Virus record (IMG/VR): IMGVR_UViG_3300008110_000111
Span: 1-43,574 of that record
From: a virus
Length of the DNA: 43,574 nt
Direction: 5' to 3' (one strand)
In this document: piece after piece, positions 98 through 10,503 of the stretch
Layout: every line of letters begins with the position of its first letter
Numbering within the stretch: the stretch's first letter is position 1
Notes under the pieces: model-generated
What the model was told of the DNA's origin: nothing
The model's database searches: none
The model's input: only the letters and a program-made list of their open reading frames with translations
Program-made: the position numbers and the translations under genes

Positions 98-126
98 TTG
101 CCCTAGCCCGGTATTTGTGATATAAT
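98..126 (+). promoter_or_regulatory. sigma70-type promoter, extended -10
   Basis: The -35 is TTGCCC (98-103) and the -10 is TATAAT (121-126), with an exact 17-bp spacer and a TGn extension (118-120). It is the first of eight look-alike promoters in the window. It would start a transcript near 133 carrying a structured leader (AACGAT 200-205 pairing ATCGTT 217-222), tRNA-Leu and the large structured region. Confidence 0.85.
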
Positions 127-227: not shown

Positions 228-310
228 GCCCAGGTGGTGAAATTGGTAGACACGCTGGTCTTAGAAGCCAGTGCGCGAGCGTGACGGTTCGAGTCCGTCC
301 CAGGGCACCA
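228..310 (+). tRNA. tRNA-Leu(UAG)
   Basis: Class II tRNA with encoded CCA. The anticodon loop CTTAGAA gives UAG, and the T-arm is GACGG/TTCGAGT/CCGTC. The acceptor GCCCAGG/CCAGGGC has one A-A mismatch at 5-68. It reads CUN codons. CTA is visibly frequent in the genes of this window, so the tRNA probably supplements a codon the host uses less. Confidence 0.92.
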
Positions 311-952
311 TAGTTAAGTATTTTGTTCGTCCTAGGTGAAATAAACAGGACATTGCAGCCCAGAGAAATAAGGGTACCCGGCCGGTATATCCCTAAAGCG
401 GGCTGAAGTTAATCGTAGCCGATTCTTAGCGGAATCATATGGCAGGAAGATTAACTCATGCGCGAGCAGGCAGTAAGCAAAATACTTTACTATGGCTGTT
501 GACTGGCCCGATAAGGCACTCTAAAGCCTGAACTGGGAAAACTTATTTCTAGTCAACACCCGTAATTGCGCTGCTCACGCTGAACCTATAAACTCTAGGC
601 TGGTGACTAGGCTGGGATCGTACCCCGTAAAGATATTCGACTGTACAACGTGAACAGTGAAGTCTAGAGCAAGCAGGGATGAGCACCTGCATATATAGTT
701 CCCGCCACGCTTATATAGTCGTATCCCTAGACTATATAGCGCACTATGGCGATAAAAGTTACGAGTGATGGTGGACTACGTAACTGGACACTGGAGACCT
801 GCGGGCCGTCGCCCAATAGTAAAAAGACACTATGTTACCACTTTAGGGAGTGGGGCCATAGTTCAACTCATACTGATTCGCTGGTGACTGCCAGAGATAG
901 CTCTTTCAGGCTGAAGAATGGGTTTAAGTGAGTTGAACTATGGTTATAACAA
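311..952 (+). ncRNA. Candidate large structured non-coding RNA (GOLLD/ROOL-like)
   Basis: About 640 nt between tRNA-Leu and tRNA-Ala with no credible gene. Many self-complementary segments are seen directly: 329-333/347-351; 356-361/400-405 enclosing 371-374/391-394 and 375-378/384-387; 407-413/450-456 enclosing 421-425/432-436; 460-469/571-580 (one mismatch) enclosing 472-476/487-491 and 498-504/551-557; 593-598/664-669; 673-677/686-690; 703-707/747-751 enclosing 712-720/730-738; 758-763/779-784; and a perfect 15-bp helix 856-870/929-943. The size, the tRNA neighbours and the phage setting match what is known of the giant GOLLD and ROOL RNAs. The assignment to either family is inference. It is probably expressed from the promoter at 98-126. 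Confidence 0.65.
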
Positions 953-4537: not shown

Positions 4538-4638
4538 GGAAGGGTTGCTAATATTGGCCTTAGGGCGAGCCTTATAAACTCGTAAGCACTGTCCAGATAA
4601 GGCAGTTAATGTGGGTTCGATTCCCACCCCTTCTACCA
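4538..4638 (+). tRNA. Aberrant tRNA (Ile-like) with 25-nt D-loop insertion
   Basis: The acceptor GGAAGGG/CCCTTCT has a G1-U72 pair, and the T-arm GTGGG/TTCGATT/CCCAC and CCA are clear. Read as class I, the anticodon arm is CTGTC/CAGATAA/GGCAG (GAU, Ile, but A33 instead of U33) and the D-arm is normal apart from 25 extra bases (4558-4582) after GG. The extra segment itself carries a CGAG...CTCG hairpin whose loop CTTATAA would read UAU if a C-A pair closes it. The identity is uncertain; tRNA-Ile is the best guess. Confidence 0.6.
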
Positions 4639-8459: not shown

Positions 8460-8639
8460 ATGGCTTGGGTATGGGTTATACTATTTTCTGTGTTAGGCAC
8501 TGGCGGCGAGCATGGAACCAGAGGCGCATACTCTAGCAGGGCTGAGTGCGAACAAGCACTACTTAAACTTAAACTAGACTACGAAACTAAAGGTAAAACT
8601 CTAGTTGGTAGTTGTAGTGTTACGCAAAAGAAAATATAG
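8460..8639 (+). CDS. Small exported or membrane-anchored protein
   Basis: 59 residues. The ATG at 8460 is chosen because AGGA lies 8 nt upstream; an upstream in-frame ATG at 8433 would overlap the previous gene. N-terminal MAWVWVILFSVLGTGG is a hydrophobic signal or anchor; the rest has two Cys (28 and 52) and matches no recognised family. Its stop directly precedes the tmRNA region. Confidence 0.65.
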   Translation: MAWVWVILFSVLGTGGEHGTRGAYSSRAECEQALLKLKLDYETKGKTLVGSCSVTQKKI

Positions 8640-8640
8640 T

Positions 8641-8967
8641 TGTATGAAGTTAACCCAAAGGTGCTTTGGACGCGGGTTCGACTCCCGCCTGGTCCACCAA
8701 AAACATTCTTGTCCATGTATTTGGGAACGGAAAGATAAACCGTGAGAATGTTTCTGATGGGCCAGTCATGGTTTCGACAGGGTGCAGAGTAGGAAGATGG
8801 ACAACTCGACAATGCAGAAGTCGTAGGGCTGGGACTACCCGGCTAGAGAAGCAAACAAACTAAACGCAAACGATGAAACGTTCGCATTAGCCGCCTAAAC
8901 TCGGCTTAGGGTTCCAGGTTATCCTCGTAACAGAAAACCTGGACTTAAATGGCCATTTGGCATTTTT
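8641..8967 (+). ncRNA. ssrA: Circularly permuted (two-piece) tmRNA precursor
   Basis: The 3' tRNA-like half comes first: T-arm GCGGG/TTCGACT/CCCGC (8672-8688), acceptor strand CTGGTCC (8689-8695), A73 and CCA (8697-8699). After a linker whose ends AAACATTCT (8701-8709) and AGAATGTTT (8745-8753) pair, the 5' half starts with GGGCCAG (8759-8765) and the hallmark CATGGTTTCGAC. The acceptor stem pairs fully with a G3-U70 wobble, the alanine identity element. The reading frame GCA...TAA at 8866-8898 encodes the tag ANDETFALAA. A hairpin at 8913-8920/8936-8943 follows, then a weak terminator (8947-8967). It rescues ribosomes stalled on nonstop messages; the two pieces would be made by removing the linker. 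Confidence 0.93.
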
Positions 8968-9000
8968 ATTAACAATTCTTGCTCATATGAGGAGAATAAG

Positions 9001-9934: not shown

Positions 9935-10503
9935 TGAAAAAAATTATACTTTCCCTGTTCGATTATAGTGGCAATTGGCCTAAATACTACCGCGACAGCG
10001 GGTTATATGACGTATATCAAGTAGACGTTAAACTTGGTCTTGATATACTTGATATAACTCCCGGTGACTTACCACAACCTATACATGGTATCCTAGCTGC
10101 TCCACCTTGCACAGACTTTGCTAGTAGTGGCGCTCAGTATTGGTCACAAAAAGATAGGGATGGTCGTACCCAACAGAGCTTACAACTAGTAGATAAAACC
10201 CTAGAAATTATAAGTTATCATGAACCCAAATGGTGGGTGATTGAAAATCCTGTGGGTAGACTAGCAAAACTTAGGCCAGAACTAGGCACACCTTGGTACT
10301 TTCAGCCATGGTGGTTTGGTGATCCTTACACCAAGAAAACAGGCCTGTGGGGCACATTTAATCGTGACTTACCACAATCGCCAGTTGATCCCGACCCTAA
10401 ATCGCCAATAATGCAGCTGGGTGGTAAATCAGAACGAACTAAAGAATTGCGTAGTATGACTCCACTAGGCTTTGCCCTAGCGTTTTACCTAGCAAATCCC
10501 TAG
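9934..10503 (+). CDS. Minimal cytosine-C5 methyltransferase-like protein
   Basis: 189 residues from the ATG at 9934, which shares its A with the tRNA-Gly CCA; the frame is open upstream only because it crosses the tRNA. N-terminal KKIILSLFDYSGNWPKYY resembles the SAM-binding motif I region, LAAPPCTDFASSG holds the catalytic Pro-Cys of motif IV (about residue 65), and WVIENPVGRL is the motif VI Glu-Asn. The protein is much shorter than a full C5 methylase, so target recognition may be minimal. Similar proteins are common in large phages. The stop overlaps tRNA-Val. Confidence 0.75.
   Translation: MKKIILSLFDYSGNWPKYYRDSGLYDVYQVDVKLGLDILDITPGDLPQPIHGILAAPPCTDFASSGAQYWSQKDRDGRTQQSLQLVDKTLEIISYHEPKWWVIENPVGRLAKLRPELGTPWYFQPWWFGDPYTKKTGLWGTFNRDLPQSPVDPDPKSPIMQLGGKSERTKELRSMTPLGFALAFYLANP

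Follow-up and report, generated by a model that had tools for sequence, protein, structure and literature searches.

The locus and its flanking genes

The window, the whole stretch of DNA analysed here, is a 43,574-nt viral sequence (IMG/VR record IMGVR_UViG_3300008110_000111). Positions 311 to 952 are non-coding and lie between two phage tRNA genes. The features of this locus, in window coordinates, are:

98..126, plus strand: promoter-like site TTGCCC-17-TATAAT with extended TG, upstream of tRNA-Leu (consensus match only)
228..310, plus strand: tRNA-Leu(TAG), upstream flank; the D1 closing helix begins with the 3 nt of its CCA
308..495, plus strand: candidate RNA module D1 (~188 nt), closing helix 308-327/476-495 (CCAUAGUU.../...UACUAUGG), with covarying homologues
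491..495, plus strand: UAUGG repeat at the putative deletion junction, placed by alignment, tRNA calls and hairpins
497..558, plus strand: clade-specific hairpin, helix 497-506/549-558, conserved in close relatives
~572..685, plus strand: candidate RNA module X, CUGAACCUAUAAA ... UGGUGACUAGG, closing helices 572-577/680-685 and 593-598/664-669
697..943, plus strand: candidate RNA module Y, core 697-862 (P1-P7, PK1-PK3) plus 3' hairpin P8
953..1027, plus strand: tRNA-Ala(TGC), downstream flank

An earlier reading of the sequence alone (the sequence-only reading) had described this region as free of genes, flanked by tRNA-Leu and tRNA-Ala and rich in helices, and all three points hold. No ORF longer than 62 aa overlaps 311-952. 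A 61-aa ORF at 746-931 on the plus strand is not kept in relatives and by that comparison is a chance ORF; nor is any conserved open frame across the region kept in relatives, which that reading had named as an objection to an RNA. The minimum free energy of 311-952 is -219.6 kcal/mol, compared to -182.3 +/- 8.0 for shuffled sequences (z -4.65), and none of the 20 shuffles folded as well. The strong promoter claimed upstream fared less well. The site at 98-126 exists and matches the consensus at 10 of 12 positions; however, one site was found where 2.0 are expected in shuffles. Such sites are expected by chance, and this one is weak evidence by itself.

Elsewhere in the window, Rfam models match tRNAs that ARAGORN does not call at 1035-1107, which looks like a tRNA-His (GTG) with a weak score of 29.8 bits, and at 4538-4635. 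The same tRNA array holds a permuted tmRNA gene (8607-8989, tag ANDETFALAA), and a 27-nt inverted repeat (81% complementary) lies near the array at 9995-10065.

Searches against known RNA families

We ran cmscan on the window against 4,227 Rfam families, and scanned positions 1-1200 also at E values up to 5. No family matched within 311-952 at or above its gathering score, the scan of the window returning only tRNAs and the permuted tmRNA, and the permissive scan of 1-1200 gave nothing relevant. Rfam scans of the other Y loci likewise found no known family matching Y, known ribozymes included. The sequence-only reading had proposed a member of the GOLLD or ROOL class or, should neither model match, an undescribed RNA; it is the second proposal that agrees with these scans. 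Even at E<=10 the GOLLD model (RF02032) finds nothing in the window, and the ROOL model (RF03087) finds nothing there or in the 12 related records searched with it, a search in which no positive control gave a signal. The GOLLD model is able to detect distant relatives, because it finds a diverged GOLLD-like RNA in another record (E 4e-10). This copy (L190:667-877; G019:C1:472966-473176) scores 44.7 bits against a cut-off of 150, and the 524-kb phage contig that carries it also carries module X.

A group I intron or riboswitch, an idea based on motifs, found no support in Rfam. Our literature search, which covered sources other than subscription papers and preprints, found no description of D1, X or Y; where the paper on phage DC31 (PMC12195039) uses RNA terms, it gives a tRNA count only. 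From these comparisons, D1, X and Y appear to be three previously undescribed structured RNAs that match no catalogued RNA family.

Homologues of the region

Related phages in IMG/VR, mostly metagenomic records, were reached via a neighbouring protein. In Blast searches the region is nearly intact in close relatives, and a shorter core is found in distant ones. The Y set was widened by pattern scans, a blastn match in DC31 and a covariance model, which gave 65 matches at E<=1.4e-15; some of these contigs are near-duplicates, and 60 distinct core sequences remain. Three diverged copies were detected by the model and not by the pattern. Y is present as a single copy per record (18 of the 24 records searched have a match). 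It also occurs, unannotated, in the isolated Limnohabitans phage DC31 (PQ492658.1), the only relative found among phage records; none was found in plasmids. The sole pattern match in the genome collection (L120) looks like a protein-coding chance match, and twelve loci from a relaxed pattern were judged unrelated by eye. The tmRNA type and the occurrence in DC31 only suggest a beta-proteobacterial host for the window.

In four close relatives (L010, L016, L035, and L022), identity to the window is 96-98% for D1 and 90-93% for Y, compared to 72-83% for the ORF at 1655. Two small ORFs just downstream equal the RNA in conservation in some relatives, so that conservation by itself is little proof.

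Structure of module Y

The elements of Y that are discussed below are, all on the plus strand:

712-720/730-738: helix P2, a 9-bp hairpin
724..729: loop L2, UCCCUA, which kisses L7 (844-849, UAGGGA) to form PK1
767..774: loop L4, whose GGU (770-772) pairs with ACC (797-799) to form PK3 (L4xJ4/5)
807..810: loop L5, whose GUC (808-810) pairs with GAC (826-828) to form PK2 (L5xJ5/6)
829-834/857-862: helix P6, enclosing hairpin P7 (838-841/850-853)
856..943: 3' hairpin P8 (856-871/928-943), whose 5' strand contains the P6 3' strand

Helix P3 is absent in the window clade. The structure was tested on 51 pairs in a 32-sequence MAFFT alignment. Pairing is possible in 91.3% of the cells, and 32 pairs have changes on both sides. 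The covariation score is 0.417, compared to 0.154 +/- 0.009 in shuffled alignments and at most 0.081 in slid controls. We also applied a home-made, R-scape-like test, which used a sequence-only alignment of 60 sequences, a FastTree phylogeny and 30 simulated alignments as the null; seven pairs were significant at E<0.05, all of them in P2, P4, P5, P6 or P7. Both alignments contain the covarying helices that the sequence-only reading had proposed to look for, and the compensatory changes fall in conserved helices, as expected for a new family. Two helices of that reading recur as elements of Y with support from homologues: the 9-bp hairpin, which is exact, is P2, and the 15-bp helix at 856-870/929-943, which is perfect, is P8.

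All three pseudoknots (L2xL7, L5xJ5/6, and L4xJ4/5) were recovered. PK1 is nearly invariant and is backed by conservation, not by covariation. PK2 covaries: three members have CUC/GAG in place of GUC/GAC. For PK3 the combinations seen are GGU/ACC, GGU/GCC, AGU/ACU, GGU/ACU, AGC/GCU, and GGC/GCC, all of which pair; a diverged subfamily, read by eye, has a longer PK3 (GUUGUA/UACAAC or GCUGUA/UACAGC). We initially favoured binding of L4 (UGGUG) to the tRNA 3' end (CACCA), an idea abandoned since L4 pairs within Y and covaries; the first search patterns had partly imposed the apparent invariance of L4. Judged by its homologues, Y is a strong new RNA family that folds compactly into six or seven helices with three pseudoknots.

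The ends of Y and the competition between P6 and P8

About 14 of the 38 Y loci begin 5-11 nt after a CCA, and for at least eight of these ARAGORN calls the tRNA. Directly upstream of Y in DC31 lies a tRNA (L121:5868-5943, near 45 kb) that is unannotated and was found with Rfam. In five loci, a hammerhead core (CUGAUGA...GAAA) lies directly upstream instead:

L089:650-704
L092:200-228
L097:8336-8364
L103
L105:10149-10177

These have a complete core, a varied stem II and, in our stem assignment, pairable stems III and I; their score is below the Rfam cut-off (28 vs 48.5 bits). The predicted cut, between GGGUA and AGGAU, falls just upstream of Y. Since the 5' end of Y lies just after a tRNA CCA in many phages, or just after a hammerhead in these five loci, Y is probably a discrete, processed RNA, with boundaries read from the neighbouring tRNAs and hammerheads.

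P8 is 13-19 bp long and reaches at least 13 bp in 30 of the 32 aligned members. The 3' strand of P6 lies within the 5' strand of P8, so the two helices compete and are mutually exclusive. With ViennaRNA, 23 of 30 precursors are predicted to form P8, and after removal of the P8 3' strand 27 of 30 are predicted to form P6; these are predictions from nested models, which ignore pseudoknots.

P8 is followed by a U run in four loci (L002, L010, L022, and L103), and in other clades it lies just upstream of a ribosome-binding site and start codon. This arrangement would also suit a cis-acting role, in which Y is a switch whose core sets P6 or P8, and P8 in turn sets termination or processing of the downstream tRNA or gene. 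The strand shared by P6 and P8 in nearly all Y members fits such a switch. However, the genes downstream of Y vary (tRNAs, unrelated ORFs, or nothing), the 5' boundary at a tRNA end or hammerhead is more in keeping with a released RNA than with a leader, and P8 belongs to a widespread hairpin family whose members mostly occur without Y. We consider a cis-acting switch unlikely, while still giving it some weight.

Modules D1 and X

Homologues of D1 are 186-191 nt long and have the same kind of closing helix (for example in L004, L012, L013, L149, and L150). Several phages carry D1 with no match to Y, and in contig 3300043448_000556 the two are far apart, with D1 near 25.7 kb and Y at 39.7 kb. 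In RNAalifold, 17 D1 sequences gave 18 pairs with double-sided changes; this covariation comes from two main sequence types plus two outliers. As far as the alignment can tell, D1 is a well-supported new family alongside Y.

L029, L122, and L124 contain X, and two jumbo-phage contigs, L123 and L125, carry it alone; the whole records of these two gave no match to the Y model. Its closing helix, read by eye, varies in sequence and pairs in each member, over a set of eight sequences. X was found via a pattern containing its two conserved blocks, so the invariance of these blocks is not evidence. The comparison makes X a likely third new family. The gene that closely follows X in L123 and L125 starts MSSTLSRFGVPLGGGAG; in L123 a terminator-like hairpin and a T run separate the two.

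One RNA or three

The sequence-only reading took the region for one giant RNA of about 640 nt. What stands is a non-coding, tRNA-adjacent region with conserved, covarying structure; the single RNA is wrong or unproven. Three findings lead to the reading of D1, X and Y as separate RNAs. Each module has its own distribution; L029 has X after Y, opposite to the order in the window; and six relatives (L002, L010, L016, L022, L025, and L035) have a tRNA-Tyr and a CCAUA hairpin between D1 and X. The window and L023 do not contain this tRNA-Tyr, and since the junction lies at the UAUGG repeat, this is most simply explained by a deletion between repeats. The arrangement in L029, which had suggested circular permutation, follows from X and Y being separate modules placed in reverse order.

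A single large ornate RNA of this length in the window's clade would fit the fold z-score of -4.65, the lack of any tRNA or gene between the modules in the window and L023, and the one promoter-like site upstream. The helix joining the modules (460-469/571-580), presented as closing a multibranch loop, does exist; however, it forms nine of its ten pairs, with a C-A mismatch, and its strands come from D1 and X, respectively. The X strand also pairs with 680-685, so that the helix competes with the closing helix of X, and homologues give it no support. Together with the separate distribution, the reordering in L029 and the tRNA-Tyr in close relatives, this makes a single RNA improbable. A joint longer transcript is possible in the window clade, where nothing now separates D1, X, and Y. 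The comparison indicates that 311-952 is probably three RNA modules in tandem, rather than one giant RNA.

The CCAUA...UAUGG hairpins

P8 (here 856-872/927-943) and the D1 closing helix are members of a dispersed family of CCAUA...UAUGG hairpins in these tRNA arrays. We scanned the collected loci for CCATA...TATGG stems of 14 bp or longer and obtained 84 distinct elements. Five permuted anchors yielded 0-1, and the overlapping anchor TACCA yielded 14; the loci had been chosen for tRNA-rich phages, and this density is not a general estimate. On the tRNA strand, 37 of the 79 hairpins begin exactly at a tRNA CCA, which is thus paired with UGG. Most of the hairpins have no Y. Their arms show compensatory differences between copies, and G-U pairs at fixed positions, which suggests that they are RNA-level processing stems.

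Alternatively, these helices might be terminal inverted repeats of a DNA-level mobile element that carries the RNAs as passengers. The number of copies relative to the permuted anchors, their scatter through the tRNA arrays and the patchy occurrence of Y among related phages are compatible with such an element; in contrast, compensatory arm changes and fixed G-U pairs are expected of RNA stems, and we regard a mobile element as very doubtful.

A proposed model for the three RNAs

We propose, with a probability of roughly 0.6, that D1, X and Y are tandem non-coding RNAs from a tRNA operon that are released by processing, and that Y refolds from P8 to P6 and acts in trans. The comparative data show the structures, the family, the separate modules, the recurrent 5' boundary of Y and the mutually exclusive pairing of P6 and P8. 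In the proposed sequence of events, transcription of the three RNAs as part of the tRNA operon of the phage would be followed by their release, both through tRNA processing and through cuts at the long CCAUA...UAUGG hairpins. P8 would form in the Y precursor as a double-strand processing site. After removal of its 3' strand, the shared strand could pair as P6 and complete the mature fold, and mature Y would then be a stable non-coding RNA acting in trans during infection.

A more specific version has Y gated by its maturation: P8, one of the CCAUA hairpins that would act as the processing signal in these tRNA arrays, would hold the precursor, its cutting would free the P6 strand and turn on the triple-pseudoknot fold, and D1, X and Y would share one processing code. 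We offer this version tentatively, as possible but rather unlikely in all its parts. We give hardly any credence to Y as a self-acting ribozyme, for example one cutting or joining at the P6/P8 strand exchange: the compact triple-pseudoknot fold, the strand-exchange geometry and the nearby hammerheads in one clade would agree with it, but no known ribozyme family matches Y and no invariant motif marks a cut site.

Because one member of Y belongs to a phage that is in culture together with its host (DC31 on Limnohabitans sp. DCL3), its expression, processing, and loss of function are open to direct tests. The exchange of strands between P6 and P8, together with the CCAUA hairpins, points to a possible general route for the cutting of phage tRNA operons and the maturation of their non-coding RNAs.

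Comparison with known systems

The hammerhead ribozyme (RF00008) is a neighbour and not a part of Y; its core, upstream of Y in one clade, would set the 5' end of Y. A similarity to T4 rnaD (ACUGAUGGU) was also considered. The Y model gives it no support, its best score in the T4 rnaC/rnaD region being 4 bits.

GOLLD is a homo-oligomeric nanocage (14-mer). Like the RNAs in the window, it is a large phage non-coding RNA with kissing loops and a proximity to tRNAs; however, it often exceeds 800 nt, whereas Y is about 250 nt long. Its function is described as unknown, and it is structured and often near tRNAs (PMC12286853). It is also described as resembling ROOL in where it is encoded, namely close to tRNA islands of prophages and phages (PMC12286853). 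ROOL shares with the window region the trait of a large structured RNA, although its model has no match here. The T4 RNAs rnaC and rnaD (species 1 and 2 RNA) are stable non-tRNA RNAs within a phage tRNA cluster, a comparable setting, but are only 139 and 119 nt long.

To our knowledge, no function has been assigned to the large structured phage RNAs beside tRNAs (GOLLD, ROOL, and T4 rnaC/rnaD). With the present analysis, the tRNA-adjacent phage RNAs gain at least two new families with good support, D1 and Y, and X is a likely third. For GOLLD, ROOL, and T4 rnaC/rnaD, the presumed role is that of a stable non-coding RNA acting in trans, and it is to these RNAs that we liken Y.
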